From the IMG/VR virus record IMGVR_UViG_3300047666_001143, positions 1 to 64,000 of that record: 64,000 bases of DNA, one strand, 5' to 3'. A model generated the notes under the pieces. The model saw nothing but the letters and a program-made list of their open reading frames with translations. It made no database searches and was not told the origin of the DNA. This stretch comes from a virus. Of this stretch, positions 690-29,386 are shown piece after piece. Position 1 is the first letter of the stretch. Every line of letters begins with the position of its first letter. The translations under genes were made by a program, and so were the position numbers.

Positions 690-832
690 CGTCCATCAAG
701 TGTAGTAGGTGTGATAAAACATTCAATAACGGATCAGAATATAGGACACATTTTTACACACATTTAGATGAGTGGTATAACTCAGAAAATAAAGAAGAGT
801 ATATTAAAAATACAACCAATCAAATAAATTAA
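668..832 (+). CDS. C2H2 zinc-finger micro-protein, start lost or non-ATG
   Basis: The reading frame contains a textbook C-x2-C-x12-H-x3-H zinc finger (ligands in about 698-765), followed by an acidic helical tail and a TAA at 830-832. There is no ATG: the frame is open back to a stop near 605, and TTG at 668 gives 54 aa. In the related copy at 18182 the same leader segment starts with a proper ATG overlapping the upstream gene. The simplest reading is that this copy kept the finger but lost its start in a recombination. It may use an alternative start or be a remnant. Confidence 0.4.
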   Translation: MKHNNLKPSIKCSRCDKTFNNGSEYRTHFYTHLDEWYNSENKEEYIKNTTNQIN

Positions 833-873
833 CAAAAAATTAAGAAGATATAATTAATAATTTTATATATTTG
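828..873 (+). promoter_or_regulatory. promoter, repeat-containing class (P1)
   Basis: The -7 box TATATTTG (866-873) fits the Bacteroidota TANNTTTG consensus. No TTTG lies at the -33 position. Instead ATTAACA (828-834) and ATTAAGA (839-845) repeat with an 11-bp period, and the second ends 20 nt before the -7 box. The same geometry is found at 2089, 13629 and 29379. It drives the exonuclease gene at 893. Confidence 0.6.
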
Positions 874-892
874 CATAAAGAAATAATAAATT

Positions 893-2047
893 ATGAATAA
901 AAATATTAGAAAATTAGATATTGAAAAAGTATTATTCTTCGATATCGAAACCGTGAGTGCAAACAAAGAATTAGATAAAGATTCAAGAGAGTATGATTCT
1001 TATGCTTGGTCAATTAGAGATGTACCTACTGGATTCGTCCCTCCTGCAAAAGATGTATTAATACACTATAAAAAGATGGCAGCATTAAAATCACAATTCA
1101 ATAAGATTGTTGTGATCAGTATTGGTTATGTTAAAGGAACTACACTATACTATAAATCTTTAGTTGGAGAACAGAAAGATGTTATTGAAGAATTTTATGG
1201 TATCGTGAATTCAACGGGTTTTAAATTATGCGGCCATAACATTATCGGCTTTGATGTACCTACTGTAAGAATGAAAGCTTTCGAGGAGAATATAGATTTT
1301 AATCTTATACCCGAAAGAATCAATGATGTAGATAAAAAACCCTGGCTAATTACCGAAGAGTTGTTGGATACAATGGTAATGTTAAAAGGTACTGCGTATT
1401 ACAATATATCTTTGGATGATGCATGTAGATTAGCTGGAGTTGAAACTAGCAAAGATGATATTACAGGAGGACAAGTAACAGAAGTTTACTACAACGAAGG
1501 TACTGAAAGAATTGCTAAATATTGTAATAAAGATGTTATTGCATCTGCCAGACTATTTTGTGCTATACAAGGTAAGCGTGGGTTTATAACTGAATGTATT
1601 GATAAGGGAGCTGAGGAGTTAAAAGAAAAAGAACCAATTAACGTGATTGATCACATATTAGCGTCAGGTGAACTTTCTCCAAAAGTTGTTGAAGCTATTG
1701 TAGAATTTACAGAAGAAAATAAATTAAACAAAGAGAATGTTCTTATATTAGTTAAGACGGCTATTTCAAACTCAAAAGAATTTCAGAAAGTTACAGACGA
1801 AGATATATATGAATTGAAAGAAGCTTTAGGTTTAGTTATTGATTATTCTAAAATTCAAGTTGTTGCTGATAAAGGAAATCTTGGTAAAAAAGAAGTTGAT
1901 ACAGTAATTTCTCAATATGTAAAATCAACTAAAAAAGTCAAACTTGAAATTATATCTTTAGTAGAGCAATATTTGACAGAGAACAACAAGATAGGGCAAA
2001 AAAGAGCCAAAGAATCTTTTGAATTTTTAAAAGATAACTTGAAGTAA
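893..2047 (+). CDS. 3'-5' exonuclease, DEDDy (PolB-like) family
   Basis: 384 aa. The first 230 residues form a DnaQ-fold exonuclease: Exo I Asp-x-Glu in FFDIET near residue 17, Exo II GHNIIGFD near 115, and Exo III Tyr-x3-Asp (YCNKD) near 210, which places it in the DEDDy group of predicted PolB-like exonucleases. It probably acts on 3' ends during replication or repair, or degrades host DNA. The last 150 residues are a helical, Lys/Glu-rich extension of unknown role. It has its own promoter just upstream and is followed by another, so it is a monocistronic early unit. It is separate from the exonuclease domain of the polymerase at 27289. Confidence 0.85.
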   Translation: MNKNIRKLDIEKVLFFDIETVSANKELDKDSREYDSYAWSIRDVPTGFVPPAKDVLIHYKKMAALKSQFNKIVVISIGYVKGTTLYYKSLVGEQKDVIEEFYGIVNSTGFKLCGHNIIGFDVPTVRMKAFEENIDFNLIPERINDVDKKPWLITEELLDTMVMLKGTAYYNISLDDACRLAGVETSKDDITGGQVTEVYYNEGTERIAKYCNKDVIASARLFCAIQGKRGFITECIDKGAEELKEKEPINVIDHILASGELSPKVVEAIVEFTEENKLNKENVLILVKTAISNSKEFQKVTDEDIYELKEALGLVIDYSKIQVVADKGNLGKKEVDTVISQYVKSTKKVKLEIISLVEQYLTENNKIGQKRAKESFEFLKDNLK

Positions 2048-2050
2048 AAT

Positions 2051-2096
2051 ATTAGCATTTCTTTAACAGTATAATTGAATAAAAACACTATCTTTG
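2051..2096 (+). promoter_or_regulatory. promoter, repeat-containing class (P2)
   Basis: -7 box TATCTTTG (2089-2096). ATTAGCA (2051-2057) and TTTAACA (2062-2068) repeat with an 11-bp period, with a 20-nt gap to the -7 box and no TTTG at -33. Drives the small gene at 2121. Confidence 0.55.
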
Positions 2097-2120
2097 TAGG
2101 GTAATTATAAAACAATAAAA

Positions 2121-2369
2121 ATGGACAGATTAAAAACGTATGACTTAGTTAACAGTTGCGAAAGTTTATTAGGGTTATCTAATATAATTAAAAGTTTAGC
2201 AGATGAAGATGGAAAGATTCAAGGCAAAACTAGGAAATTTGATGCTGAAAAAATGGCTTTAAGTGCTGAAAATTATAGTAATGTACCTAAGAATACTTTA
2301 ACAAGGGAGTTTGGTATAAGACAACAAGCTATTTACCTGATTTATATAGATAGAACAATTTTTAAATAG
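2121..2369 (+). CDS. small hypothetical protein
   Basis: 82 aa, unknown. The C-terminal half (LTREFGIRQQAIYLIYIDRT) could be a short helix-turn-helix, which together with the promoter directly upstream makes a small regulator possible, but the motif is too short to be sure. ATG chosen from the A-rich leader 25 nt after the promoter. Confidence 0.6.
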   Translation: MDRLKTYDLVNSCESLLGLSNIIKSLADEDGKIQGKTRKFDAEKMALSAENYSNVPKNTLTREFGIRQQAIYLIYIDRTIFK

Positions 2370-2387
2370 TATATTAAACTAATAATT

Positions 2388-2594
2388 ATGAAAGTAAAAA
2401 TTAAATTAAAAGACACAACTACACCAGTTTATTATGAGAACGTTGTATCTCATTTTATGGAAGGGCCGACATTAGCATTACTATTTGAAGGCGGGGAAGT
2501 TAGAAATTTTCCTCTGATTCATATTTGGTATTACGAAACAAAACAACCAAGAGAAAAAACTAAAGTACTATCTGAGATTGATGAAGAAGAATAA
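2388..2594 (+). CDS. small hypothetical protein
   Basis: 68 aa, beta-rich N-terminus and acidic tail; no family recognised. It is co-transcribed with the gene before it (18-nt gap) and followed immediately by the structured RNA beginning at 2600. Confidence 0.55.
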   Translation: MKVKIKLKDTTTPVYYENVVSHFMEGPTLALLFEGGEVRNFPLIHIWYYETKQPREKTKVLSEIDEEE

Positions 2595-2599
2595 ATTAA

Positions 2600-2887
2600 A
2601 CATTGAAACCTTTGTGAATTAGTAAATTATTACAAAAGGGAGCCACAATAGGGTTAAAAAACGAATAATACCCTTTAATTCACATAAAGATACTAATCCT
2701 GAGTACAGGATGTTGTAAAAACAGGGCTCATTAAATTGAGACAGCTTATTTATAAGTGGTAACTGATAATAATCAATGGAGTAATCCTAGATGTGTTGCA
2801 ACCTTGAGAAAGTTGTCTTATAAGTGGCTTTGAGTGATTGCCAACAACACAAATGTCTCAACATTATCTTTAGGTTCAATGTTTTTA
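2600..2887 (+). ncRNA. structured non-coding RNA of unknown family
   Basis: No ORF is present. The ends pair: ACATTGAA-A-CCT (2600-2611) with AGG-TTCAATGT (2872-2882), 11 bp with one bulge, followed by a U-run (2882-2886), as in an RNA with its own 3' end. Inside are further helices: GTGAATTA 2614-2621 with TAATTCAC 2676-2683; ATCCT 2696-2700 with AGGAT 2707-2711; TGTGTTG 2792-2798 with CAACACA 2845-2851. TTGAG 2804-2808 could pair with CTCAA 2857-2861 across the last helix, a possible pseudoknot. No known family was recognised by eye. It could be a free RNA processed from the operon or a long 3' UTR structure. Confidence 0.5.
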
Positions 2888-2896
2888 ATAAAAAAG

Positions 2897-2928
2897 TTTG
2901 CTTATACCCTTTTAAAGCATTATCTTTA
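2897..2928 (+). promoter_or_regulatory. host-type promoter (P3), near-consensus
   Basis: TTTG (2897-2900), 20-nt spacer, TATCTTTA (2921-2928), one mismatch from TANNTTTG. It would serve the small genes at 2966 and 3170 and perhaps the long RNA behind them. Confidence 0.4.
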
Positions 2929-2965
2929 CGAAAGAAAATGAGGGCTTACATTTAAATTAAATATT

Positions 2966-3151
2966 ATGAAATATATTACTGAAAGAAATGGCGAGGTAAA
3001 AGAATCAAATTATTTAAGGTTGGTCAATGGTGAATCAGAGTTTACTGCTCAAGTAGATAATCAAGGAACTTTGATTATTACAAAAATAAATTTCGATGAT
3101 TCAGCGATAACTATTATGCCAAAGGTCAGTAATCAAATAGGATTAAAATAA
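2966..3151 (+). CDS. small hypothetical protein
   Basis: 61 aa, beta-rich, no recognised family. Starts at an ATG with an A/T-rich leader 38 nt after the near-consensus promoter. Confidence 0.5.
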   Translation: MKYITERNGEVKESNYLRLVNGESEFTAQVDNQGTLIITKINFDDSAITIMPKVSNQIGLK

Positions 3152-3169
3152 CAATTAAACTAAATAAAA

Positions 3170-3316
3170 ATGGAAAGATTCAAAACTAAAAATGGAGAAA
3201 TGCACACAATTGATTCAACTGGAAATCACTTTATAGGTGCCAAATGTGTAAACCCAACTTGCGTCAGCGGATTGGAAATTGGAGACACTTATCCTGAAGA
3301 AAGCGAGATAGCATAA
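3170..3316 (+). CDS. 48-aa hypothetical protein
   Basis: Starts at ATG 3170 behind an A-rich leader. It has two Cys five residues apart around residues 31-36 and an acidic end. No family recognised. It is the last ORF before 950 bases without coding potential. Confidence 0.45.
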   Translation: MERFKTKNGEMHTIDSTGNHFIGAKCVNPTCVSGLEIGDTYPEESEIA

Positions 3317-3924
3317 AGATTAAACTTTTTGTTTTCAAGTAATAAAATAATAATATTAACCAACCTATTTGTTTGGAGAGGTATTGCGTGAAGTAGTTGG
3401 AAAAACAATCCCAACATTATTAAACTTTATCAGAAGTTGCGTTTATTTGAAGTATAGTCGATTCCTTGAGTATTTTACATAATCTAATTGTAATCTAAAC
3501 AAGATTAGGTACATTATAATCATAGCTGAGTTGGTACAAAAAGTTTTTAAAAATTAAGGATATGCACGTATACAGTTAGCGACACCTTTCAAATCGGAGG
3601 ACTGTACAAGGGAAATGAAGAGGTTCCCAAAAAGGCAGAGTAGCATTTAAGGAGGTAATTACCTTAATGTGATTGGAGTTATTTGAGGTATTGGAATTCT
3701 GGACATACTATACTAGTTGATTTGTCAAAGCCCAATATTATTCATTAACATAAGTTGGTTCGATTCCTTCCCTGTCACGGAAGTTGTACTCTTTAAGTCA
3801 AGAAGGATAACAGATATTGCACAAGACTTACTGTGATGAATATTGCTGAATCTAGCTCAATAGATTCCATGCCGAGTAGCTATAGTTGAACAATGCGTAA
3901 AGTATAAAGTCTAAGCTCGGAATT

Positions 3925-3997
3925 GTCCTCATAACTCAGTTGGTAGAGTGGTTCCCTCATAAGGAATTGGTCGGGTGTTCGAGTCACTCTGGGGACA
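3925..3997 (+). tRNA. tRNA-Met (CAU anticodon)
   Basis: Full cloverleaf: acceptor GTCCTCA/TGGGGAC (7 bp, one G-U); D stem ACTC/GAGT with AGTTGGTA loop; anticodon stem GTTCC/GGAAT (terminal G-U) with loop CTCATAA, anticodon CAT at 3958-3960; variable loop TGGTC; T stem GGGTG/CACTC (one G-U) with TTCGAGT. Discriminator A at 3997. CCA is not encoded. It could be elongator Met or, if the C34 is lysidylated, Ile(AUA), a useful codon for an AT-rich phage. It is embedded in the long structured RNA. Confidence 0.93.
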
Positions 3998-4234
3998 CAA
4001 AATCACGTTAACTGGGTAGGTTTGTATTTTACTTACTCCAAGACTGACGTAATGTCGGGAAAGTCAAACAGTTAGTTCGGATTTTTTAGCAGAAGTTTAT
4101 TTAGGTGATGGAACCATTTGTGAGAAAAGAAATTTTCTGAAAATACGGCAAATGTAAAATAGAATCCCAAGTAAGTCCCCGATAGTTCTCACGCAAAGTT
4201 GGTTTTAAGGGGAAAGACTCTCAGAGGTAAATTT

Positions 4235-4256
4235 AATAGTTAGGCAAACTATTTTT
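4235..4256 (+). terminator. intrinsic terminator of the structured RNA
   Basis: AATAGTT-AGGCA-AACTATT (7-bp stem, 5-nt loop) followed by TTT. Low GC but well placed between the RNA region and the gene at 4269. Confidence 0.5.
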
Positions 4257-4268
4257 AAATTAATTAAT

Positions 4269-4931
4269 ATGAACAGTCCGACAGAAATCATAACATTACC
4301 AACAAAGGAGTATACAGGTATTGTATCTCATAGTACAGGTATAGATAATCTAATTCATACTAAAGAAAGTGCAGAAAATGCTGTATTAAATATTGGAGGA
4401 GAACATCAAAATGTTTATGCAGTAGTAGAAGAAGATGTAGAACCCTGTTTAGAAGGTGATTGGTGTATTGATTTTGATGAATTTAGTGATAGACCTATTT
4501 TAAATAGAGCTTATCCTAAAGATATTTGTCCTGCTCATGTTAAGCAACATAAAATTATAGGAAGTAATGACCCTAAACTTTATGATAACAGAGAAAATAA
4601 TACACCATTTAGAAGATTAACCTCTAATCCTAAAAAATTACAACAATCATTCTTAAAAGAATTTGTTAAGAATCCTGATGGTGAGTATGTAGTTGATTAT
4701 GAAAGTAAACATGAATACGGTAAATATTTACACGGTAAACCTGGTTATGTTTATGTAACTAAACTCAAACTAAACCAAGACAATGAAGCTAACATCACTT
4801 TAGTAGAAGAGAAGATGTATAGTTTGAAACAGCTTAGACAAGCTATTCTTGATTATGGGTACACTGTTACAGGAGAGGGAGATATTGAAAAAAACTTAGA
4901 TAATTGGATTAAAGAAAATTTAAAACAGTAA
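4269..4931 (+). CDS. hypothetical phage protein, Cys-rich patch
   Basis: 220 aa, unknown. A central block around residues 59-88 (CLEGDWCIDFDEF ... DICPAHVKQ) has three Cys and a His that could bind zinc, and the C-terminus is a helical Leu/Lys segment. It is followed 10 nt later by a PD-(D/E)XK nuclease gene and may be its partner in DNA processing, which is inference from position only. Confidence 0.65.
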   Translation: MNSPTEIITLPTKEYTGIVSHSTGIDNLIHTKESAENAVLNIGGEHQNVYAVVEEDVEPCLEGDWCIDFDEFSDRPILNRAYPKDICPAHVKQHKIIGSNDPKLYDNRENNTPFRRLTSNPKKLQQSFLKEFVKNPDGEYVVDYESKHEYGKYLHGKPGYVYVTKLKLNQDNEANITLVEEKMYSLKQLRQAILDYGYTVTGEGDIEKNLDNWIKENLKQ

Positions 4932-4941
4932 AAATAAAAAT

Positions 4942-5757
4942 ATGAAAAAACAATTAAATTTACCAAGAATATACACTTCAGCAAGTGATAAATTCAAAAA
5001 ACACGATGGTCGTGCCAAATTAAGCTATTCACAACACACCTCTTGGAAAGACATTCAATATAAGAACAGTTATATTTTGGGATATATCTTCAAAATACCT
5101 CAACCCTCTAATTTTTGGGCTGGATTTGGAAGTTTTTGCGGAACTTCTTTAGAGTATAGAATGGATGTACACAAAGCAGAAGGGAAAGATAAAGAGTTAC
5201 TAGACGATGCTTTTGGGTATTTTAATAAAAAAGATATCGAAACTTTGCATAAAGCCAATATACTTTTTCCTACTAATTCAGTTTACGAAAGGGAAATAGT
5301 TCTTGATAGAGGTAGTTATGTAATTCAAGGATTCATTGATGTTAATTTTACAAAAGAAGTTGAAATTGACAAAAAGAAAGTAAAACAAGAGGTAGTAATT
5401 GATGTGAAAACTGGTGGCAAGGATAGTAAAACAAAAGGTACTTCTTTTTATGAGTCAGATAAATATGGTCAAACTAGACTTTACATGAAAGCTCTAGTTG
5501 AAGAAGGAGAAACACCTGGTCATTGTGGTGTTGTTTTTTTAGATAGGATTTATGAAACTGAAAGAACCCATCCTGGAACTACAAGTTGTTTTGAAGAGCC
5601 TATATTACATTTATCAGGGGAGATTATTAAAGTAGAAACACCTTATACAGAAGATAAAGTAAAAGTTCTCTTGAAAGATATGGACAAAACAGCGGAAGAA
5701 ATCTCTTCACTAAAAAGCACTTATGACAAATTATCTACACTCACTATGGAATTTTAA
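4942..5757 (+). CDS. PD-(D/E)XK nuclease (Cas4/RecB-like)
   Basis: 271 aa. The layout fits the PDDEXK_1/RecB-like family: an N-terminal KLSYSQHTSWK segment (residues about 27-37, the usual S-x-S/T start of this family), Asp in QGFIDVNF near 133, and VIDVKTG near 153, where D-V-K is the D/E-x-K active site. A downstream Gln/Tyr helix (YGQTRLYMKAL) matches the conserved motif IV of the family. Likely an exonuclease in recombination or DNA end processing. No Cys cluster of a Cas4 iron-sulfur domain is evident. Confidence 0.82.
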   Translation: MKKQLNLPRIYTSASDKFKKHDGRAKLSYSQHTSWKDIQYKNSYILGYIFKIPQPSNFWAGFGSFCGTSLEYRMDVHKAEGKDKELLDDAFGYFNKKDIETLHKANILFPTNSVYEREIVLDRGSYVIQGFIDVNFTKEVEIDKKKVKQEVVIDVKTGGKDSKTKGTSFYESDKYGQTRLYMKALVEEGETPGHCGVVFLDRIYETERTHPGTTSCFEEPILHLSGEIIKVETPYTEDKVKVLLKDMDKTAEEISSLKSTYDKLSTLTMEF

Positions 5758-5766
5758 AAGAAAAAT

Positions 5767-6114
5767 ATGAGCGAGACAGTACATTATAAAGGAACAGCAA
5801 TATTAATTGCAAAAGAAGATAAAGCTGAAATTGAAGCTGAGAAAATATTAAATAATAGAGGTTTTAAAAAGTCAGATTATCATGATACATTTTCAGAGGC
5901 GTTAGGAGATGAATTATATAAAGAATATTTTTATCATAAGAAAACTAAATCTTTATATAGTATAGATTATACAGACCATGATTTAGAAGAAGAAATAATT
6001 GAAGCTAAATATGTTGGTTTTGATAATTCACAAATAGGTTTTGAACTTCGTTATTATAATGGCGGGGCTGGATTTGAAGAGTGTTTACAAGAAGCAATGG
6101 ATAAATTAAAATAA
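5767..6114 (+). CDS. hypothetical protein
   Basis: 115 aa, acidic, alternating helix and strand, no recognised family. Preceded by AAAAAT and 9 nt after the nuclease gene, so likely in the same operon. Confidence 0.6.
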   Translation: MSETVHYKGTAILIAKEDKAEIEAEKILNNRGFKKSDYHDTFSEALGDELYKEYFYHKKTKSLYSIDYTDHDLEEEIIEAKYVGFDNSQIGFELRYYNGGAGFEECLQEAMDKLK

Positions 6115-6122
6115 CAAACAAA

Positions 6123-6398
6123 ATGAAAAAATTAAAAACAGCAGTAGTATTAATATTACTAATCACATTAGGTGCTTGTACAAGTAATCAAAGAGCAAAA
6201 AGTTTCGGTGGAACAGCTAAACTAGAAATCCCTTGTGGACAAAAAGTAATCAATATTACTTGGAAAGGAGAGGATTTATGGTATAGTACTATACCTATGG
6301 AAGAGGATTATGTCCCTAAAATCCATAGCTTCAAAGAACAATCTTCTTTTGGTCTTATGGAAGGTAATTATTTATTAATTGAATCTAAATGTAAATAA
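6123..6398 (+). CDS. small lipoprotein
   Basis: 91 aa with a clear lipoprotein signal: basic start, hydrophobic VVLILLITL, then lipobox LGAC with Cys at residue 19. The mature part is a small beta-rich domain with two further Cys. Similar short lipoproteins occur in Bacteroidota phages. In a phage early region a membrane-anchored protein of this kind could alter the envelope or exclude superinfecting phage, but this is inference. Confidence 0.75.
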   Translation: MKKLKTAVVLILLITLGACTSNQRAKSFGGTAKLEIPCGQKVINITWKGEDLWYSTIPMEEDYVPKIHSFKEQSSFGLMEGNYLLIESKCK

Positions 6399-6399
6399 A

Positions 6400-6678
6400 A
6401 TGAATACAACAGAAATGCCAAAGTATCAAAGCCATAAAAAAATATGGGCTTTAAAGATTAAATCTATTGTAAGAGATGGAGAAGGAGAAAACCGTGATTC
6501 AGATGGGACTGCAAGTATAACACCAAAAGAAGTTGGATATGCACCATTTAAGGTAAGTCGTGACTATATGCACAAGCACAAACCACAAGTAGGTGGTTAT
6601 TTTGTGCAATACGAAGGAGGTTATGACTCATTTTCTCCTGCTGATGCTTTTGAAAATGGATATACTTTAATTAAATAA
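6400..6678 (+). CDS. conserved small phage protein
   Basis: 92 aa from ATG 6400, immediately after the lipoprotein stop; ATG 6415 is an alternative that gives the more usual start of this kind of protein, KYQSHKKIWALKI. The body (GYAPFKVSRDYMHKHKPQVG ... YDSFSPADAFENGY) is a pattern I associate with widespread phage proteins of unknown function. No catalytic motif seen. Confidence 0.65.
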   Translation: MNTTEMPKYQSHKKIWALKIKSIVRDGEGENRDSDGTASITPKEVGYAPFKVSRDYMHKHKPQVGGYFVQYEGGYDSFSPADAFENGYTLIK

Positions 6679-6686
6679 CAAATAAG

Positions 6687-8041: not shown

Positions 8042-8092
8042 TATTTTAATATATTTTACTGTTATATATTTTACAGGATCAAAAATAAAAAC

Positions 8093-8100: not shown

Positions 8101-8103
8101 CAT

Positions 8104-8222: not shown

Positions 8223-8244
8223 AACCGATAAATTTAAAAAATGA

Positions 8245-10944: not shown

Positions 10945-10951
10945 TATTACT

Positions 10952-11013
10952 GTTAAAATTTTGTTAAAACCTGTGTATTAATTTGCGCAGGTTTTCTTTT
11001 TGCTTTATATTTG
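10952..11013 (+). promoter_or_regulatory. promoter cassette with upstream repeat (P5)
   Basis: GTTAAAA at 10952 and 10963 (11-bp period), TTTG 10982-10985 inside the terminator loop, 20-nt spacer, -7 box TATATTTG 11006-11013. The first repeat lies 54 nt before the -7 box. Drives the gene at 11057. Confidence 0.65.
10966..11002 (+). terminator. intrinsic terminator after nrdA
   Basis: AAAACCTGTG/CGCAGGTTTT, 10 bp with one G-U, loop of 10, followed by CTTTTT. The loop holds the -33 TTTG of the next promoter. Confidence 0.75.
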
Positions 11014-12668: not shown

Positions 12669-12724
12669 AATTCAGTTAAACCCTACAATTAATTTTGTGG
12701 GGTTTATTTTTTACTTTACATTTG
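12664..12724 (+). promoter_or_regulatory. promoter cassette with upstream repeat (P6)
   Basis: GTTAAAA 12664 and GTTAAAC 12675, TTTG 12694-12697, 19-nt spacer, TACATTTG 12717-12724. The first 42 bases (12664-12705) are identical to 38987-39028. Confidence 0.65.
12678..12712 (+). terminator. intrinsic terminator
   Basis: AAACCCTACAA/TTGTGGGGTTT, 11 bp with one G-U, loop TTAATT, then ATTTTTT. Overlaps the -33 element of the next promoter. Confidence 0.8.
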
Positions 12725-13356: not shown

Positions 13357-13595
13357 TGAGTAAATTTAATTCTTTGGAAGTAGTTGCATGTGTTCGGCCA
13401 GGAGATCCCCAAAACGGTCTTGTAAAGGGAAATCACTACACTATATATAGATGTTTTGTAGATGCATCTGATAATGATGCTGTGGAATTAATAGAATTAG
13501 ATCCTCCGTATCCATTAAAAGGTTTTTTGGAATACAGATTTGAAAAATTAGTAGGTGACGAAGCTAAAGTGGAAAAGCTAGAAGAAACTATTTAA
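13356..13595 (+). CDS. small hypothetical protein
   Basis: 79 aa from ATG 13356, which shares its A with the upstream stop (TAATG). Beta-rich, with an acidic tail; resembles small SH3-like phage proteins but I cannot name a family. The stop codon lies inside the repeat element of the next promoter. Confidence 0.6.
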   Translation: MSKFNSLEVVACVRPGDPQNGLVKGNHYTIYRCFVDASDNDAVELIELDPPYPLKGFLEYRFEKLVGDEAKVEKLEETI

Positions 13596-13636
13596 CATAT
13601 TATTAAGATATGTTTTAAATAAAATGTATATCTTTG
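13591..13636 (+). promoter_or_regulatory. promoter, repeat-containing class (P9)
   Basis: TTTAACA 13591-13597 and ATTAAGA 13602-13608, 20-nt gap, TATCTTTG 13629-13636; no TTTG at -33. AACATAT/ATATGTT flanking TATTAAG also makes a 7-bp hairpin. Confidence 0.55.
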
Positions 13637-13640
13637 TCAT

Positions 13641-13784
13641 ATGAAAGTACAGAAAAAACACAAAACACAATATATTGTGTGTATGAAACCACAAAAACCG
13701 ATTAAGAAAGAAAGTCAAACAGTTAATTTTTCAATTAAGAGTTATTTACAAATAGTCATAAATAAATTAAAATATGGAATTTAA
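13641..13784 (+). CDS. 47-aa basic micro-protein
   Basis: ATG four bases after the -7 box, so it would be leaderless or nearly so; 47 aa, strongly basic (Lys/Gln-rich). It overlaps the RNA ligase start by 11 nt. It may be a leader peptide rather than a functional protein. Confidence 0.35.
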   Translation: MKVQKKHKTQYIVCMKPQKPIKKESQTVNFSIKSYLQIVINKLKYGI

Positions 13785-14790
13785 AGCATACCACAAAATT
13801 AGACAGTTTTATAATATCGTAAGAGATATTCAATTCAAAGCAAACTTTCAAGGTCAAGGATCAGATGGAGAGCCTTTATATGAAGAGACTGTAAAACCAA
13901 CTCTTACTTTTATAGCAACAACTAAATTGCACGGTACAAATGCAGGAGTATGTTACACTCCAAAGAAAGGAGTTGTGGCTCAAAAAAGAGGATCCTTAAT
14001 TGGAAAAGAAGAACTTGCTTCTCACTTTGGTTTTAATCAATTTGTTCAAGTTGAGAAAAAACTATTCTTCACCGATTTGATGGAAGAATTATATACTGAA
14101 CATTGTAAATTTGGAGAACAACTTACTATCTACGGAGAATGGGCAGGAAAAGGTATTCAAAAATCAGTGGGTATTTCAGAATTACCCAAAGGTTTTTATA
14201 TTTTTGATTGTAAGATTTACAATGCGGAAAAAGATACACAAAGATGGTTAGATATTACAGATTGGATATTTGAATCAGACAAAGTATTCAATATAAATGA
14301 GTTTCCAACTTGGAAGTTGAATATAGATTTTAATAAACCAGGCTTATTTCAAAATAAATTAGTTGAAATTACAGAGCAAATAGAAAAAGAATGTCCTGTA
14401 TCTAAACAATTAGGTATAGATAATTCTTTGGGTGAAGGTGCAGTGTGGACTTGTTATTGGAATGAAGAGAAATATATATTCAAAGTAAAAGGAGAGAAAC
14501 ACAGCGTATCTAGGGTTAAAAAATTAGCCTCAGTGGATCCAGAAGTAGTTAATTCTATTTACGAATTTGTGGAGTATGCTTGTACTCCAAATAGAATTGA
14601 ACAGGGTATTCAAGAAGTCAACGCAACAGAAAAAAGAGATATGCCAGCGTTGTTAAAATGGGTGGTCAATGATATTATCACTGAAGAAACAGACACTTTA
14701 ATTGCAAATGGTTTGGAATGGAAACAAGTTGCGAGTAATTGTTCTAATAGAGTTAGGCAATATTTTTTTAATAAAATAGAAAAAGTTTAA
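13774..14790 (+). CDS. RNA ligase (Rnl2-like family)
   Basis: 338 aa, a covalent nucleotidyltransferase that seals RNA nicks. Motif I is KLHGTN near residue 52 (Lys is the adenylation site), motif III IYGEWAG near 127, motif IV EGAVW near 224 and motif V FKVKGEKHS near 238. A C-terminal helical domain of about 90 residues follows. Phages use such enzymes to repair tRNAs or other RNAs cut by host defence nucleases. No polynucleotide kinase/phosphatase gene is visible nearby, so end-healing would have to come from elsewhere, although a metallophosphoesterase follows at 15428. Confidence 0.88.
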   Translation: MEFKAYHKIRQFYNIVRDIQFKANFQGQGSDGEPLYEETVKPTLTFIATTKLHGTNAGVCYTPKKGVVAQKRGSLIGKEELASHFGFNQFVQVEKKLFFTDLMEELYTEHCKFGEQLTIYGEWAGKGIQKSVGISELPKGFYIFDCKIYNAEKDTQRWLDITDWIFESDKVFNINEFPTWKLNIDFNKPGLFQNKLVEITEQIEKECPVSKQLGIDNSLGEGAVWTCYWNEEKYIFKVKGEKHSVSRVKKLASVDPEVVNSIYEFVEYACTPNRIEQGIQEVNATEKRDMPALLKWVVNDIITEETDTLIANGLEWKQVASNCSNRVRQYFFNKIEKV

Positions 14791-19342: not shown

Positions 19343-19397
19343 CAACAAATTAAAAGGAGGTTTATTTTGGGAGTCTCCTTTTTTTACATTAACTTTG
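19338..19397 (+). promoter_or_regulatory. promoter cassette with upstream repeat (P8)
   Basis: ATTAACA 19338 and ATTAAAA 19349 (11-bp period), TTTG 19366-19369 in the terminator loop, 20-nt spacer, TAACTTTG 19390-19397. Drives the helicase gene. Confidence 0.6.
19352..19385 (+). terminator. intrinsic terminator
   Basis: AAAAGGAG (19352-19359)/CTCCTTTT (19375-19382), 15-nt loop, T-run to 19385. Confidence 0.7.
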
Positions 19398-21359: not shown

Positions 21360-21360
21360 T

Positions 21361-21897: not shown

Positions 21898-21898
21898 T

Positions 21899-22378
21899 AT
21901 GAATAATTACAAAATTTTAAATATACCTTGTAATTCCGATAAGAAAATTATAAAAATTGCATATCGGAAGTTAGTAAAAATACATCATCCTGATAGAGGA
22001 GGTAATAAAGAAGCCTTCATTATAATTCAAAAAGCCTATGAGGATTTATTAGATGGTAAATCTGGGGAAGATATATTTAGTAAAAAAGAGGTTGGTAGTT
22101 CTATAAGGGTTATATCTACTGAAATGGTAGACGGTAGCGCGAAATTTAATTTTAGGTTGTTCTATGTGGATTACATAAATTTTAATAAAAATAAATACCC
22201 AATAAAAACTAATGATTATGCAGGACATATTCTCGTAACTAAAAAAGAACTAGAGGAACTTAATTATGAAGTTATAATGACTTTTAAAGGTAAAAATGGA
22301 AAGTATTTAGAAAAATCGTGGAGTGTTAAACGACCCCTTACAAAGTGGCAAAAATTCAAAAATATATTTAAAAAGTAG
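21899..22378 (+). CDS. J-domain (DnaJ-like) protein
   Basis: 159 aa. Residues 1-55 are a J domain with the diagnostic HPD at 33-35 and flanking helices (AYRKLVKIHHPD ... IIQKAYEDLL). There is no Gly/Phe or zinc-finger region; the remaining 100 residues are a beta-rich domain of unknown family ending in a basic helix. It should recruit host DnaK, for example for replisome remodelling or virion protein folding. One base follows the HD gene. Confidence 0.88.
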   Translation: MNNYKILNIPCNSDKKIIKIAYRKLVKIHHPDRGGNKEAFIIIQKAYEDLLDGKSGEDIFSKKEVGSSIRVISTEMVDGSAKFNFRLFYVDYINFNKNKYPIKTNDYAGHILVTKKELEELNYEVIMTFKGKNGKYLEKSWSVKRPLTKWQKFKNIFKK

Positions 22379-22381
22379 ACT

Positions 22382-23248: not shown

Positions 23249-23994
23249 AAAAATATAAACACAAAAGTACAGGGCACATTGCAGAGAGATCTTCTATTTG
23301 TCAATCTTACGGAATAATTAATTCAGCATCAAAAACATACTCAATACCTACATTTGTAATTGAGGGAAGTGATGATTGGGAAGAAGTTATTGAAAAAGAT
23401 TATGAAATAATATCTTATTTAGTTAATAAAAAAATATTTACTGAAAATATTGTTCCTCTTGCTAATAAAACTTATATTAATATCCGCTCAATTAAAAGAT
23501 TATCTGATGGTGAAGTATTTACTGTCGGTGATTTAATTAAAAGAAATGATAACACTGTAAAACTAGAAACAATTGAATTAGATGATATTTGGATGGGAGG
23601 TATTGTAATTAATAAAAACATAAGACCTAATGGTGGGGAATGTTTAGAAACATTACGAAAAGGTAAGAAACCACTATTCACAACAGAAGATGGTATTGAT
23701 ATTTTTGAAGGTGATTTAAGTGGTATCTGGGTTGGAGTAAAAAGTTGTCAAGTAAATCAAACTTATTCTAATCAAAGATTACAAGCACCTTATTTTACAG
23801 CTTTAAATGAAATGAAAACTAATAAATATTATAAAAGGTTTTCAACAAAAGAAGCTGCTGAAGAATATATATTAATGAACAAACCTTGTTTATCTTTAAA
23901 TGATATAGATCAAATGTTTGATAATACTTCTGCTTATAGATACGATCAGACGGAATACTTAAAAAATATAGTTAAAATAAAAACAAGATTATAA
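23245..23994 (+). CDS. hypothetical phage protein
   Basis: 249 aa. The block IRSIKRLSDGEVFTVGD near residue 80 and a C-terminal helical segment (EYILMNKPCLSLNDI) recur in many Bacteroidota phage proteins I have seen as unknowns. Start overlaps the methyltransferase stop by four bases (ATGA), suggesting coupled expression. No catalytic motif seen. Confidence 0.6.
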   Translation: MKKYKHKSTGHIAERSSICQSYGIINSASKTYSIPTFVIEGSDDWEEVIEKDYEIISYLVNKKIFTENIVPLANKTYINIRSIKRLSDGEVFTVGDLIKRNDNTVKLETIELDDIWMGGIVINKNIRPNGGECLETLRKGKKPLFTTEDGIDIFEGDLSGIWVGVKSCQVNQTYSNQRLQAPYFTALNEMKTNKYYKRFSTKEAAEEYILMNKPCLSLNDIDQMFDNTSAYRYDQTEYLKNIVKIKTRL

Positions 23995-24308
23995 TGGAGA
24001 AATTACATAGAAAGAAAATTAAAGATAGATTTACTGCTTTTGAAAATGTAATTACAGGTTCCATGTTAGTCATAGATAATAAAGAAAAAAGAACTTTATC
24101 TATTGTGGAAGCAGAGATTATTTGTCAAGATGAGTATGGGGAACATTTTTCTGCTAAATCGGAGTTTATATCTAATGTAATGGATTCTTTAATTGCAGGA
24201 ATAAAACATTATAATACTGTATGTGAAAAAGGTTTTGAAATAACAATTTCTGATATTGTAAATAAATTTAAAGAAGATGAAAAAGGAACACAGAGAGATT
24301 TTAGATAA
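23994..24308 (+). CDS. hypothetical protein
   Basis: 104 aa, mixed alpha/beta, acidic, unknown. Start shares its A with the upstream stop (TAATG); its end overlaps the next gene by 32 bases. Confidence 0.55.
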   Translation: MEKLHRKKIKDRFTAFENVITGSMLVIDNKEKRTLSIVEAEIICQDEYGEHFSAKSEFISNVMDSLIAGIKHYNTVCEKGFEITISDIVNKFKEDEKGTQRDFR

Positions 24309-24495
24309 AATAGAGGAATACTTAGAACAACCAGGTGCAGAACATTTGAGATTTTGGCAAGCCATGAGAAACTGCAACTTAATTGAATTTAAAGAGGTAA
24401 AGGTTCACAATGACTCTCAGTGGAATGAGTTTATTCCTGTTGATGATTATAATATAGCAGATGAAAAATTGTTAAAAAGGATTGAAGATGTATAA
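24277..24495 (+). CDS. 72-aa hypothetical protein
   Basis: Helical; HREILDKIEEYL ... LRFWQAMRNCNL is a pattern known from other small phage proteins of unknown role. Overlaps genes on both sides. Confidence 0.55.
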   Translation: MKKEHREILDKIEEYLEQPGAEHLRFWQAMRNCNLIEFKEVKVHNDSQWNEFIPVDDYNIADEKLLKRIEDV

Positions 24496-24934
24496 GATTC
24501 TTGTGTGTGGATCCAGAGATATAAAGGATCAGGAGTTTGTATTTAAGAAATTGGATTTTCTTTTATCTAATAAAGATTTATCTTCGGTTGTTTTGATTCA
24601 CGGCGACCAAAAATCGTTTGATCGACATTTGGAAATGAACTTCGGAGCAGATTATTTCGCTAAGTTGTGGGCTTTGTTGAAAGGAGTCAAGCAAATTCCT
24701 TTTCCTGCACCTTGGGAAGGACTAGAAGATACTCCTAAGAAACTTTTGAAGAAAAATAAAACAGGGAATATGTATTGGCCTGGAGCTGGAATGTATCGAA
24801 ACAAACAAATGGCCAATGAAGATTTAGATGCTTGTGTGGCATTTTTAGGTAGGAATTCCAAAAATGTAGGTACTCTCAATATGTTAAAGTTAGTTAAAGA
24901 TAAGGATATAATAATTAAAAAGTATTACATTTGA
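24488..24934 (+). CDS. SLOG-fold protein (DUF2493/YAcAr-like)
   Basis: 148 aa from ATG 24488 (ATG 24482 adds two residues). It shows the Rossmann-like SLOG pattern: ILVCGSRDIKD at the start, IHGDQ near 35, GADYFAKLWA near 53-62, PAPWEGL, AGMYRNKQMA near 101 and a final VAFLG-x5-GTLNML helix. SLOG proteins bind nucleotide-derived ligands and several are linked to defence signalling; a nucleotide-processing or counter-defence role is possible but not shown. Overlaps the previous stop. Confidence 0.75.
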   Translation: MYKILVCGSRDIKDQEFVFKKLDFLLSNKDLSSVVLIHGDQKSFDRHLEMNFGADYFAKLWALLKGVKQIPFPAPWEGLEDTPKKLLKKNKTGNMYWPGAGMYRNKQMANEDLDACVAFLGRNSKNVGTLNMLKLVKDKDIIIKKYYI

Positions 24935-24937
24935 CGT

Positions 24938-25216
24938 ATGGAAAAACAAAAAATATTTAATAGTATAGAAGAGGTACTTAATAGTTATGATAAAGATGAT
25001 GCTGATGTGGTATTAGGTTTAATACCATTTTTCTTCGGTGCCTCTTGGGAGGAATTTACAAGGAGTTATAATATATTGGGAGATAGTACTAAGCATCCTG
25101 ATTTTCAGTTTATATTGGCAGATAGGATAGATTATTATTTAGAAGAAACTAAGTTTAAAGATATTGATTTAGATCTCATTTGTGAGGTTGTTGAAAATAA
25201 GTATGGTACATTATAA
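24938..25216 (+). CDS. hypothetical protein
   Basis: 92 aa, acidic and helical, unknown. Three nt after the SLOG gene. Confidence 0.5.
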   Translation: MEKQKIFNSIEEVLNSYDKDDADVVLGLIPFFFGASWEEFTRSYNILGDSTKHPDFQFILADRIDYYLEETKFKDIDLDLICEVVENKYGTL

Positions 25217-25228
25217 AACATTTGACAT

Positions 25229-25390
25229 ATGGAAGAATTTATAGATGAGTGTATATCAAGTGGTAAAGTAGTTAGTGGTTATGAATATTTAAATTTATCC
25301 ATTGTGACTATAATTAAAATAGAAGAAGTTTTATACACTTGTAATGATACTGAAGCTAGAAAGAAAATTTTAAAACTGTTAAAAGTATAA
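25229..25390 (+). CDS. 53-aa hypothetical protein
   Basis: Helical micro-protein filling the gap exactly to the RNase H start (one base); amphipathic, ends in KKILKLLKV. Unknown. Confidence 0.45.
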   Translation: MEEFIDECISSGKVVSGYEYLNLSIVTIIKIEEVLYTCNDTEARKKILKLLKV

Positions 25391-25391
25391 A

Positions 25392-25865
25392 ATGCTTATA
25401 ACAGTTACCTCAGATGCTTCTTTTGACACTCATTCTAATAAGGCAGGTTATGGTTTTCTTATATCTTGCAATGCAGGAAGGTATTCAAAATCAGGTTCTT
25501 TGGAAACTGCTAAAAATATAACTGAGGCTGAACTTATGGCCATAGCAAATTCTTTGCATTATATTGTAAATCATAAAGAGTTATGGGGTGTATCTAAAAT
25601 TATCTTTAATGTTGATTTTATTGCCGCCCAAGAATTTATATTCAAGCCTGGAGGGACCAGTAAAAGTAAAAAGAAAGTTGCAGGAAAAAGATACAGGCAG
25701 ATAGTCGGTAAAATAACAGATTATATTGGGATACTGAGAAAAGAGTATAAAGGAGTTCAATTTGAGTTTCGACATGTTAAGGCCCATACAAAAGATGAAA
25801 GTACAAGAAGCAAAGCAAATAAATTTGTAGATAAATTAGCTGTTGAAGCTAGAAAAAATAAGTGA
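25392..25865 (+). CDS. ribonuclease HI
   Basis: 157 aa, usual length. Catalytic acids in order: Asp in TSDASFD (residue 8), Glu in ITEAELMAI near 47, Asp in FNVDF near 75, Asp in NKFVDKLA near 149, with the His-containing HVKAHTKDE loop before it. Removes RNA primers or R-loops during phage DNA synthesis. Confidence 0.9.
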   Translation: MLITVTSDASFDTHSNKAGYGFLISCNAGRYSKSGSLETAKNITEAELMAIANSLHYIVNHKELWGVSKIIFNVDFIAAQEFIFKPGGTSKSKKKVAGKRYRQIVGKITDYIGILRKEYKGVQFEFRHVKAHTKDESTRSKANKFVDKLAVEARKNK

Positions 25866-25867
25866 TT

Positions 25868-26119
25868 ATGAAAGATGAAAATTTACAAGAAGACGGCCTT
25901 GGTTATATCTATTATGAACACTCACAATTCCCTTTGCGAATTGTTATAGAGAAGTCAACGAAGATTATAAAAGTCGAGGTAATAAAATATTACAAAGGTC
26001 AGGAAATGAAAAAGCTAACCAAACAAAGTAAGATACTCAATACAATGTCCAAAGAACAAGTGGAAGATTACATATTAGATGTAGTATATTTGTTTTTAGA
26101 TGGTAAAAAAGACAAATAA
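25868..26119 (+). CDS. small hypothetical protein
   Basis: 83 aa from ATG 25868 (a GTG at 25862 is less likely). Basic, mixed structure, no recognised family. One base before the nuclease gene. Confidence 0.5.
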   Translation: MKDENLQEDGLGYIYYEHSQFPLRIVIEKSTKIIKVEVIKYYKGQEMKKLTKQSKILNTMSKEQVEDYILDVVYLFLDGKKDK

Positions 26120-26120
26120 T

Positions 26121-26774
26121 ATGAACAGTTCTTTTATTGACAAAGTACTTCACAGAGAATTTCAACTTCATAAGTACCAATTGTCAAATAGCTTTATTTA
26201 CAACGAAGAGTCAGATTTCTTTTCCATGACTGCTTCTGGTTATGCACAAGAAATAGAAGTAAAAGTGAGCCGTTCTGATTTTAAAGCAGATTTTAAGAAG
26301 TACAAACATGCAAGTTTTAAACAATTAATCTCTGGTCAAAAATACGTTGTTAAAAAAGGCTACATTACTTGGAAAGTCAAAGAACCAATTATGATAAACT
26401 TTGTTGGTGAAGATGGTAAAGGGGTTTACGTGGAAGATAAATATGGCAGAAAGAGGCCTAAAACAGTTCCTTCGGGAAAATTCAGAGAATATACAAGTAT
26501 GGGGAAACCTAATAAAAGCTTTGAATCTCAGGCAATTTCAACTGGTATTAGGATATTTAAACCTATTTTACCTAATAAATTTTGGTTTGCCGTTCCTGAA
26601 AACTTGATACCCCTAGATGAAATTCCTGATTATGCAGGTCTCTATTACATTACCGAAGGAGGTAAACTTAAAATCATAAAGAGAGCTCCTTTTATTCATA
26701 AAGAAAAACACAATATAAACAAGGTACTATTGGATAAGTTTTATTATCTTAGCCTTAAATTAAAAAGTAGATGA
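26121..26774 (+). CDS. MmcB-like DNA repair/nuclease-fold protein
   Basis: 217 aa from ATG 26121. An early Asp/Met/Thr strand (FFSMTASGYAQEIEVKVSRS) near residues 32-51 gives an E-x-K (EVK) with the following Ser-Arg-Ser-Asp-Phe-Lys-x-Asp typical of this phage/plasmid family related to PD-(D/E)XK nucleases. Near the end, FWFAVPENLIPLDEIP ... YAGLYYI is the other hallmark. Likely acts on DNA; activity unproven. Confidence 0.7.
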   Translation: MNSSFIDKVLHREFQLHKYQLSNSFIYNEESDFFSMTASGYAQEIEVKVSRSDFKADFKKYKHASFKQLISGQKYVVKKGYITWKVKEPIMINFVGEDGKGVYVEDKYGRKRPKTVPSGKFREYTSMGKPNKSFESQAISTGIRIFKPILPNKFWFAVPENLIPLDEIPDYAGLYYITEGGKLKIIKRAPFIHKEKHNINKVLLDKFYYLSLKLKSR

Positions 26775-27292
26775 ATATGAAAGCATATGAATTAAACTTA
26801 GATAAAATAGAAGAAGGTTATAGATACGATTCTGTAATTGCATACGGAGAAACTAGGGGTAAAGCTAAGTCTAAAATATGGGAAGAAATAGAAAATTATG
26901 GTTATGGTCCTTTATACTTTGATGGGGAATTAACTTTTTTAAATTTACCAATTAGAAGAGCTAAAGAATATGATAAAATTGAGTTTGAAGGGAAACTAAA
27001 AACAAAAAGAGAAATCGAAGAGATTGAAGTTGATAGAAAAAGAATTGCTAAATTAAATAGTTTTCTAAATAATACTGAAATAACTCATTGCTATATACAA
27101 AAAGGCTCTTACTATAGACCTGGGAGTTGTGGTTATACTTCTTTTAAAAGTCGTGCTGGTGTTTATACAATAAAGGAGGGAGTTAGTCATGCAAGAAGTT
27201 GTGAAGATATTTGGTTGGAGATAATTGATATAAATGAGCACAATAAAATGCTCAAGGATGAAATTGAATCTTTAAAAAGTAGATTGGTATGA
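26771..27292 (+). CDS. conserved phage protein of unknown function
   Basis: 173 aa (ATG 26771, overlapping the previous stop; 26777 is an alternative). The C-terminal half (HCYIQKGSYYRPGSCGYT, then AGVYTIKEGVSHARS and a helix with EHN) is a recurrent phage protein pattern. Function unknown. Overlaps the polymerase start by four bases, so it is translationally coupled to it. Confidence 0.65.
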   Translation: MNMKAYELNLDKIEEGYRYDSVIAYGETRGKAKSKIWEEIENYGYGPLYFDGELTFLNLPIRRAKEYDKIEFEGKLKTKREIEEIEVDRKRIAKLNSFLNNTEITHCYIQKGSYYRPGSCGYTSFKSRAGVYTIKEGVSHARSCEDIWLEIIDINEHNKMLKDEIESLKSRLV

Positions 27293-29337
27293 ATTTAGAT
27301 AATTTAATGGTGGCCGATATTGAGGCAAAAGGACTTCTTAACGATGTTCATACTGAAGAAGATTTTCATGTACTTTCAATGGGTTATAAGGACTCTAAAG
27401 GTAAATGGCATATAAAGTCAACAGATAACAAAGAAGATGTCTTAAAAGTGTTTGAAGATCCCTCTAATGTTATCGTAGGACATTACTTTATACCCTATGA
27501 TGCTCCTGCTCTTGAAAAAATGCTCAATTTTAAAATTAAGGCTACAATTATTGATTCCTTAGCTATAAGTTGGTATTTACACAACACACAAAATAAGCAT
27601 GGCCTTGAATTTTACGGAGAGAGTTATGGAGTTCCAAAAGTAAAAATTCAAGAGGAAGAATGGGCAGGACCAATGCCTGGTGAAACTCTAGTTGAATTTA
27701 AGGCTAAAATGAAATCTAGGTGTGAGACTGATGTTAAGATTAATATTAATTTATGGACAGAACAATTAGCTTATCTTAGAAAGATTTATGACTCTGATGA
27801 AGAAATAATAAGAATTATAAAATATTTAAACTTTATAATGCAATGTTATAGAGAGCAAGAAAAGCAAAAAATACAAGTTGACATTGATAAAGTTAATAAG
27901 AACTTAAAACATTTTGAGTCTTTAAAAGAAGAAAAGTTCTTGGCTCTTCAAAAAGCCATGCCAAGAGTTCCTGAAATTACTACTAAAAATAAACCAAAAA
28001 TACTCTATAAGAAAGATAGTTCTATGAGTGCAGCTCATATTAAGTGGCTTGATTTTTTATTAGCTTGTAAACTTTCAGAGGAAACAGAGGGGCCAGTAGA
28101 ATATATAAAAGGTTATAAAATTTCCAATCCTAACTCAGTGAAACAAAAAAAAGAGTGGCTTTATTCTTTAGGTTGGAAGCCCCAAACTTTTGTTTACAAT
28201 AGGGATAAAGATACAGGAAAAACAGATAAAGTAGAGCAAATATTGACTACTGATAAAGATTTATGTCCAAGTATTATAAAACTTATAGATAAAGAACCTG
28301 CAATAAAACATTTAGAAGGAATGAGTATACTTACTCATAGAATTGGTATCTTTAAAGGCCTATTGAAAAACTCTAATGAAAATGGATTTGTAGTTCAAGG
28401 CTTATATCAATTGGCTAATTCTTTAAGGTGGCAACATTCTGTTATTGTTAATTTTCCAAGAGTCACAGGAAGAGGAGATATTGCAGATGGAAAATGGATT
28501 AGAGAATGCCTTATTGCAGGAAAAGGTTATAAATTTGTGCAAAGTGATTTAAGTGGAATTGAGTCAAGGACTTCTGATCATTATACTTTTCATTTGAATC
28601 CAGAGCTTATAGAGGAGACTTCTAAACCTTATTTTGATCCGCATACAAAAATTGCTGTTGTAAGTAATCTTATGACCAAAGATGAAGAAGTATGGTTTAA
28701 GTGGAAAAAAGAAAATAGTGAGAGAATTAAAAAGGGTTTAAAAGAATTACCACCAGAGACTTTTGGAGAATTATCAGAAGATTTTGAGTATATAAGAAAC
28801 TATTTTGGTGAAGATTTTAAAAAACTTATGAATAAGCTTAAAGAAGCTAGAAGTAAAGGAAAGACTACTAACTATGCATCTCTTTACCTTGTTGGGGCTG
28901 CCACTTTGAGTAGAAATTTAGGTATATCTAAAACAGAAGCTAAAAGTCTTATTGATGCATATTGGGAAATTCACTGGGCGGTAAAAGAAGCTGCAAGTAA
29001 ATTTAAAATTAAAACTGTTAATGGACAAATGTGGATATACTGTCCTATATCTAGGTTCTGGCACCCAATTAGGTACGAAAAAGATGCATTTTCTGTTGTC
29101 AACCAATCAAGTGCTGTATACTGTTTTAATATATGGTTATACAATATAACACAACAAGGTGTTTGGCCTATACTTCAGACACATGATGATGAATTACTAA
29201 GATGTAAAGAAGAAGATATACAAAAGTACATAGATATTACAAACGAAGCTATGAACAAGCTTAATAAGCAATTAAAATTAAATGTAGAACTTGCTTGTGA
29301 AGTTCAGGTAGGAGATAATTTTGCAGAGACTCATTAA
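27289..29337 (+). CDS. DNA polymerase, family A
   Basis: 682 aa, about the size of T7 polymerase (704). The N-terminal proofreading domain has VADIEAKG (Exo I D-x-E near 10-12) and GHYFIPYDAPALE (Exo II near 64). Polymerase motif A is QSDLSGIESR near 417-428 (canonical D-Y-S-Q-I-E-x-R with Ser-Gly changes), motif B RSKGKTTNYASLYL near 520, motif C THDDE near 630. Residues about 200-330 lack the canonical thumb landmarks I would look for. Main replicative polymerase, used with the DnaB-like helicase. Confidence 0.93.
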   Translation: MNLDNLMVADIEAKGLLNDVHTEEDFHVLSMGYKDSKGKWHIKSTDNKEDVLKVFEDPSNVIVGHYFIPYDAPALEKMLNFKIKATIIDSLAISWYLHNTQNKHGLEFYGESYGVPKVKIQEEEWAGPMPGETLVEFKAKMKSRCETDVKININLWTEQLAYLRKIYDSDEEIIRIIKYLNFIMQCYREQEKQKIQVDIDKVNKNLKHFESLKEEKFLALQKAMPRVPEITTKNKPKILYKKDSSMSAAHIKWLDFLLACKLSEETEGPVEYIKGYKISNPNSVKQKKEWLYSLGWKPQTFVYNRDKDTGKTDKVEQILTTDKDLCPSIIKLIDKEPAIKHLEGMSILTHRIGIFKGLLKNSNENGFVVQGLYQLANSLRWQHSVIVNFPRVTGRGDIADGKWIRECLIAGKGYKFVQSDLSGIESRTSDHYTFHLNPELIEETSKPYFDPHTKIAVVSNLMTKDEEVWFKWKKENSERIKKGLKELPPETFGELSEDFEYIRNYFGEDFKKLMNKLKEARSKGKTTNYASLYLVGAATLSRNLGISKTEAKSLIDAYWEIHWAVKEAASKFKIKTVNGQMWIYCPISRFWHPIRYEKDAFSVVNQSSAVYCFNIWLYNITQQGVWPILQTHDDELLRCKEEDIQKYIDITNEAMNKLNKQLKLNVELACEVQVGDNFAETH

Positions 29338-29340
29338 TCT

Positions 29341-29386
29341 TTTAACATTTTATTAAGATGTTATGGTGATTAAGTTACTATATTTG
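29341..29386 (+). promoter_or_regulatory. promoter, repeat-containing class (P10)
   Basis: TTTAACA 29341-29347, ATTAAGA 29352-29358, 20-nt gap, TATATTTG 29379-29386; no -33 TTTG. Drives the small-gene cluster from 29448. Confidence 0.6.

Follow-up and report, generated by a model that had tools for sequence, protein, structure and literature searches.

How is a promoter recognised that carries the -7 box of Bacteroidota and lacks the -33 TTTG usually read by the primary sigma factor? This question is raised by the IMG/VR virus record IMGVR_UViG_3300047666_001143, a record of 76,218 bases (30.5% G+C) from a phage of the Bacteroidota type, of which the first 64 kb (64,000 nucleotides) are called the window here. 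Four promoters in the window have a tandem repeat with an 11-bp period, resembling TTAACA and TTAAGA, in the place of the -33 box. An earlier note, made from the letters alone, had described these promoters and had attributed the repeat to a phage activator that replaces -33 recognition. Here we report that the repeats mark a distinct promoter class and that the same element occurs in many other viral contigs and at conserved promoters of Flavobacteriaceae. The repeat is probably (with a probability of about 0.6) the site of a host-encoded activator, likely a response regulator of the OmpR/PhoB family, which would replace the -33 contact at the four phage promoters.

A paired repeat defines a second promoter class

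The pattern TTAACA-N4-ATTAAGA-N20-TANNTTTG occurs exactly at 828, 13591 and 29341, always on the plus strand, and neither the minus strand nor a reversed-pattern control yielded a match. The fourth site, at 2051, is degenerate and deviates from this strict pattern by three mismatches, or by one (TTAGCA) if the second repeat may also be TTAACA, a form that clearly predominates at this place in viral contigs outside the window phage. Ranking the 158 TANNTTTG boxes of the 76-kb genome by the repeat register in front of them gave scores of 12, 12, 12 and 11 (maximum 12) for the four sites and 8 for the next one. The earlier note had made its claim depend on an enrichment over shuffled DNA, and this enrichment was found, because dinucleotide shuffles lead one to expect 0.01 sites scoring at least 11 per genome. 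It had also correctly stated that the host -33 TTTG is missing in all four promoters: the region around -33 contains no TTTG end, and the canonical sigma-A layout of Bacteroidota, with a -33 TTTG about 19-21 nucleotides (nt) before TANNTTTG, is absent at each of them. Ordinary promoter-like sites with a -33 TTTG are present in the same phage (12717, 19390, 37120 and 39040). Thus, given the four top-ranking sites, the low expectation from shuffles and the ordinary sites alongside, the paired-repeat sites are a second promoter class within the window phage.

In each repeat, two half-sites of about 7 bp follow one another head to tail with a centre-to-centre distance of 11 bp, which is the layout of an OmpR/PhoB-type box. 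When the -7 box is taken to lie at -12 to -5 (PMC9723704), the repeat would be centred at about -41, the position of a class II activator. An inverted repeat, AACAT(AT)...(AT)ATGTT, overlaps the direct repeat at 13592-13614 and 29343-29363; as a reading of the box it was rejected because AACAT...ATGTT fits only two of the four sites. Another tandem, TTAACAAAATTTTAACA, is located on the minus strand at 10951-10967, between two plus-strand genes and with no -7 box in range.

Searching the relatives with a spaced profile, as the earlier note had suggested, gave a divided picture. The closest relative found (G008), whose DNA polymerase is 75% identical, carries ATTAACT-N4-TTTAACA-N20-TATATTTG at the place orthologous to 29341, where it immediately follows the DNA polymerase gene of this relative. 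The gene that follows the box differs from that in the window and matches the window open reading frame (ORF) 32440-32862; thus, the intervening small genes are extra in the window. In a more distant relative (G009), TTAAGA-N5-TTAACA is shifted up by one turn to N31, and an AATTTG stands in phase at -33. Two further relatives (G010 and G011) lack the box in both registers, and no relatives were found via the exonuclease gene.

The element in other viral contigs

Over all viral contigs, the strict TTAACA/TTAAGA pattern gave a single match, a chance one in coding sequence. A scan that permitted C or G in each hexamer, with a gap of N5 and spacers of N20 or N21, uncovered the box in at least 120 viral contigs and at least 133 sites; all counts in viral contigs are lower bounds, and kinship was weighted solely by removing near-identical sites. 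Among the matches listed at N20/21, 127 of 133 sites read TTAACA/TTAACA, 124 are located outside ORFs of at least 100 amino acids, and ten contigs carry two to four sites. By comparison, a control with the spacer shifted to N16/17 returned 43 viral contigs in total, none of them with two sites, 19 outside ORFs and with no bias towards TTAACA, and the opposite-orientation control returned 25. Several of the box-bearing contigs that were tested encode a terminase and other tailed-phage genes, and the class spans phages differing in genome size and gene content. Two whole phage records contain six (G443) and five (G446) sites. The named Polaribacter phage P12002S has two (near 46893 and 49563), one of which precedes its terminal small-gene cluster, and no exact site was found in phi38:1, phi14:2, crAss001, RAP44, 11b, FCL-2, 6H, phi10:1, phiST, P12024L or BS-TP2.

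Extending the scan to spacers from N22 to N34 revealed a second register one helical turn further up, with counts of 55 at N31, 35 at N32, 13 at N30 and 0-5 at all other spacers. With near-duplicates removed, a -33 TTTG accompanies none of the 74 sites at N20/21, compared with 23 of 61 at N31 and 15 of 46 at N32 (38 of 107 combined). The 0/74 is in part a necessary outcome, as the -33 position is taken up by the second repeat itself; the informative part is the return of TTTG once the repeat moves one turn up. Judged from sequence, the two peaks (N20/21 and N31/32) display both a dependence on helical phase and a substitution of the -33 box, and the element has the anatomy of an activator site that could stand in for -33. 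The idea of an activator site replacing -33 was thereby sustained as far as the site and its distinct class are concerned, and not with regard to a phage-specific factor.

The element at conserved host promoters

The strict phage pattern was also sought in bacterial chromosomes, with one genome each for 84,980 species. It was present at ten loci, seven of which lie directly before Bacteroidota genes. A relaxed pattern gave 16 matches in seven such genomes as compared with 2 for the controls, and most of the matches that had not been used for selection fall at N19-22. When both gaps were left free in 41 Flavobacteriaceae genomes, the combination of gap 5 and spacer 21 accounted for 30 among the matches listed, and nearly all other combinations for 0-3; gap 5, which corresponds to the 11-bp period, was represented 52 times among the matches listed versus 3-15 times for the other gaps. 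For TTAACA-N5-TTAACA, 43 among the matches listed in Flavobacteriaceae stand against one in the control, with N21 contributing 24 and N31 nine.

Most of the matches in Flavobacteriaceae sit at two orthologous genes. Many N21 sites precede a lipoprotein-like gene, which has no Pfam or NCBIfam match and is usually divergent from an ABC-F-type gene. The second family encodes a protein of 184 amino acids without a Pfam match, and the gene adjoins PorX-like and TsaE-like genes at the N21 loci that were read. Here, some genomes have the repeat at N21 and others at N30/31, the proteins being 51-70% identical. No other single observation speaks as strongly for the presumed helical phasing as this one-turn step between orthologues. 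Moreover, DUF2911-type genes are preceded by TTAACA-N5-TTAAGA-N20 in Polaribacter (L007/L029) and by TTAAGA-N5-TTAACA-N21 in others. These swapped forms tie the TTAACA/TTAAGA variant of the phage to the host class.

A host activator as the probable reader of the repeat

Because the same box is present in the same helical register at Flavobacteriaceae promoters and in more than 100 other viral contigs, it is most likely that an activator of bacterial origin is borrowed by the phage in place of one of its own. A response regulator would bind head to tail on the two 11-bp half-sites, and the bound dimer would take the position at which the -33 TTTG is otherwise contacted by region 4 of the primary sigma factor. 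The dimer would then recruit the sigma-A RNA polymerase, and the promoter would still be opened at the TANNTTTG -7 box. In this way, a regulator present in the cell before infection may be entrusted by the phage with the exonuclease, an 82-amino-acid protein, the RNA ligase operon and the small-gene cluster. We infer transcription starts, protein binding, activation, family membership and host encoding of the binder from the DNA and from the proteins predicted on it.

The distribution of candidate proteins is consistent with a host origin of the binder. No Trans_reg_C domain, the DNA-binding domain of OmpR/PhoB regulators, was found in ten phage records, the window phage included, and no helix-turn-helix regulator appeared among the best 25 of 26 Pfam families in a scan of 76 window-phage proteins, whereas the hosts encode several Trans_reg_C proteins. 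The leading named candidate, still a tentative one, is RprY. The best NCBIfam match of the RprY-like host protein is RprY (290 bits, below the curated 370), the gene of the partner kinase was matched in 40 of 41 Flavobacteriaceae genomes, and a strongly conserved array of the TTTTAACATTTTTGTTAA(T/G)GTAAGGTTAAA type (TTAAC-type) is located upstream of rprX or rprXY in most of 30 loci read (L318-L347). A heavy-metal-type response-regulator gene (L136) has TTAAGC-N5-TTAAGA in front of it (1009-1068) and a similar array after the kinase gene; as the common binder, this regulator was discarded because a close match exists in only 2 of 41 genomes. The genes of three PhoB-like regulators (L135, L137 and L139) are preceded by 11-bp direct repeats of the GTTAT type. 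A search of the open literature uncovered no account of a TTAACA box, of an RprY binding site or of such a box in Bacteroidota.

Several observations weigh against a host activator. At two of the four window sites, a short inverted repeat (AACAT...ATGTT) is an alternative reading, which does not fit the other two. The rprX array has steps of 12 and 11 bp, leaves about 26 nt (counted manually) between its end and the likely -7 box and is out of phase with N21 and N31; because steps and phase are unlike both classes, it is only suggestive. Strict TTAACA/TTAAGA pairs with a variable spacer show no excess in 396 Flavobacteriales (9 matches versus 15 for the reversed control). The TTAAGA variant of the window is itself rare in hosts, and exact sites are few per host genome. 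The link between phage and host is one of geometry, related hexamers and the swapped forms at DUF2911-type genes. Furthermore, Flavobacteriaceae and Flavobacteriales serve in this comparison as putative hosts of the window phage.

Comparison with known systems and alternative explanations

The middle promoters of T4 depend on the phage proteins MotA and AsiA, and the MotA box is a single, phage-specific element. The window promoters resemble them in that a putative activator site replaces the sigma contact at -35/-30 and the downstream box is kept; however, the window box is a direct repeat and is found at host promoters too. Promoters of lambda CII also have direct repeats about one helical turn apart that flank the -35 position, but CII is phage-encoded and reads TTGC-N6-TTGC. 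The core of the ArcA box, GTTAA, is the other-strand reading of TTAACA. ArcA boxes are direct repeats, often more than two, spaced 11 bp from centre to centre (PMC3798270). However, ArcA is a proteobacterial regulator, none was identified here, and RprY is merely a relative within the family. A PHO box is a pair of 7-bp direct repeats that are separated by 4 bp, have an 11-bp period and lie close to the -35 region or overlap it (PMC4415409), and the same layout of two 7-mers and a 4-bp spacer is given for PhoP sites of Mycobacterium tuberculosis (PMC4832192). The window element shares the 7-mers, the N4 spacer, the period of 11 and the location with the PHO box but differs from it in sequence (TTAACA/TTAAGA), in the Bacteroidota -7 box and in host targets that are not phosphate genes. 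The closest precedent for a borrowed regulator is the Synechococcus phage S-PM2d, in which phage genes, including that for the DNA polymerase, carry boxes of the host PhoB, and binding of host PhoB was shown by electrophoretic mobility shift assay (PMC10976474). The authors of that study caution that a predicted box need not be functional in every case (PMC10976474). The precedent shows that control of phage promoters by a host OmpR/PhoB-family protein exists in principle. Both cases have phage genes with a box of the OmpR/PhoB-family type containing TTAA, the binder in the window being a predicted one. In S-PM2d the setting is cyanobacteria and phosphate starvation, with a box at variable distance, whereas the window class belongs to Bacteroidota, uses TANNTTTG as the -7 box, keeps the repeat in a fixed register in place of -33 and has apparently another regulator and a wide spread in viral contigs.

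The MotA-like activator favoured by the earlier note, encoded by the phage and unrelated to response regulators, now appears unlikely. The window phage does have a protein resembling a C2H2 zinc finger and many small proteins without a family, and the sites are crowded in some phages (six in G443), but the same box in both registers and with the same -7 box stands at conserved Flavobacteriaceae promoters, which would have to be a look-alike regulon. Phages of differing genome size and gene content would need a common factor, no Trans_reg_C domain was found in the phages searched and no candidate activator in the window phage, and the geometry is that of PhoB and ArcA sites (PMC4415409, PMC3798270) and not of MotA. 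An explanation without any activator, in which the Bacteroidota sigma-A RNA polymerase itself reads TTAACA as an alternative -33 element and the upstream copy provides an extended or UP-like contact, would suit the likeness of TTAACA to the E. coli -35 TTGACA, the location of the downstream repeat at -33 and the broad use in phages. We consider it quite unlikely, since the box comes paired with an 11-bp period, the pair is also placed one helical turn up, often above a normal -33 TTTG, and the exact sites, few per host genome, are gathered at few orthologous genes.

A true PHO box, to which the host PhoB would bind when phosphate is scarce, is a very unlikely and already disfavoured reading. 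The geometry is identical (PMC4415409), and the cyanophage Pho box has a consensus containing TTAA (PMC10976474). However, the host sites are not at pst or pho genes or at phoB, five of the seven genomes holding exact sites have no PhoU match, and the closest PhoB homologue in Flavobacteriaceae (L137), which is below the curated cut-off, has the GTTAT-type repeats and not TTAACA before its own gene. A chance resemblance in AT-rich DNA has been refuted by the counts: the genome has 30% G+C and the sole match of the strict pattern in viral contigs is a chance one, but neither accounts for four sites where 0.01 are expected, nor for an enrichment in viral contigs and hosts that is specific to register and orientation.

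Genes downstream and other features of the phage

The first base of the -7 box precedes the ORF by 27, 32, 12 and 69 nt at the promoters 866, 2089, 13629 and 29379, respectively (Table 1). The genes that the earlier note had assigned to the promoters were recovered for the exonuclease, the RNA ligase, which follows a 47-amino-acid ORF, and the small-ORF cluster, whereas no support was found for the 82-amino-acid protein as a regulator.

Table 1 Repeats, -7 boxes and downstream genes of the four paired-repeat promoters
Feature	Position	Strand	Remarks
Tandem 11-bp repeat ATTAACA-N4-ATTAAGA	828..845	+	TTAACA 829-834, TTAAGA 840-845; occupies the -33 region of promoter 866
-7 box TATATTTG	866..873	+	20 nt after the 828..845 repeat
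3'-5' exonuclease gene	893..2047	+	phrog_25228, E 1.5e-63; downstream of the 866 promoter
Degenerate tandem repeat ATTAGCA-N4-TTTAACA	2051..2068	+	TTAGCA 2052-2057, TTAACA 2063-2068
-7 box TATCTTTG	2089..2096	+	N20 after the 2051..2068 repeat
82-amino-acid ORF	2121..2369	+	No family match; downstream of the 2089 promoter
Tandem repeat TTTAACA-N4-ATTAAGA	13591..13608	+	
-7 box TATCTTTG	13629..13636	+	N20 after the 13591..13608 repeat
47-amino-acid ORF (13641-13784), then RNA ligase gene (13774-14790)	13641..14790	+	Ligase: phrog_548, E 1.8e-59
Tandem repeat TTTAACA-N4-ATTAAGA	29341..29358	+	Directly after the DNA polymerase gene 27289-29337
-7 box TATATTTG	29379..29386	+	N20 after the 29341..29358 repeat
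Small-ORF cluster	29448..32862	+	Downstream of the 29379 promoter; tested ORFs without family match

Among the 76 proteins encoded in the window at 1-41300, the families Thy1, ribonucleotide reductase small chain, NA37 nucleoid-associated protein, GmrSD_N, YspA-type SLOG, DnaJ and C2H2 zinc finger are represented, and a tRNA-Met is located at 3925-3998. A crAss-like assignment of the phage was dropped because its large structural proteins match general virion families only. Near-identical, strong terminator-type hairpins are present at 12669-12722 and 38990-39045, and their TTTTG also supplies the -33 TTTG for the promoter that follows (spacer 19; -7 boxes at 12717 and 39040), so that terminator and promoter are predicted to overlap at both places. 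The same arrangement with a weak fold is seen at 19343-19395.

Implications

Promoter recognition beyond the -33 and -7 boxes has been little studied in Bacteroidota. The strict register, the two helical-phase classes and the conserved host targets described here provide a route to the regulator, its regulon and the phage genes that depend on it. It is conceivable, as a speculative extension, that a conserved two-component regulator of Bacteroidota, perhaps RprY, serves many unrelated Bacteroidota phages as a shared entry switch. Their consensus boxes, in the -33-replacing register and one turn above it, would then couple phage gene expression to an envelope or respiratory signal of the host, which would gate infection. 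If several phage lineages indeed lean on one host regulator, many of these phages should suffer from the deletion of its gene, and Bacteroidota genetics would gain a set of regulated promoters directly from the phage versions of the box.

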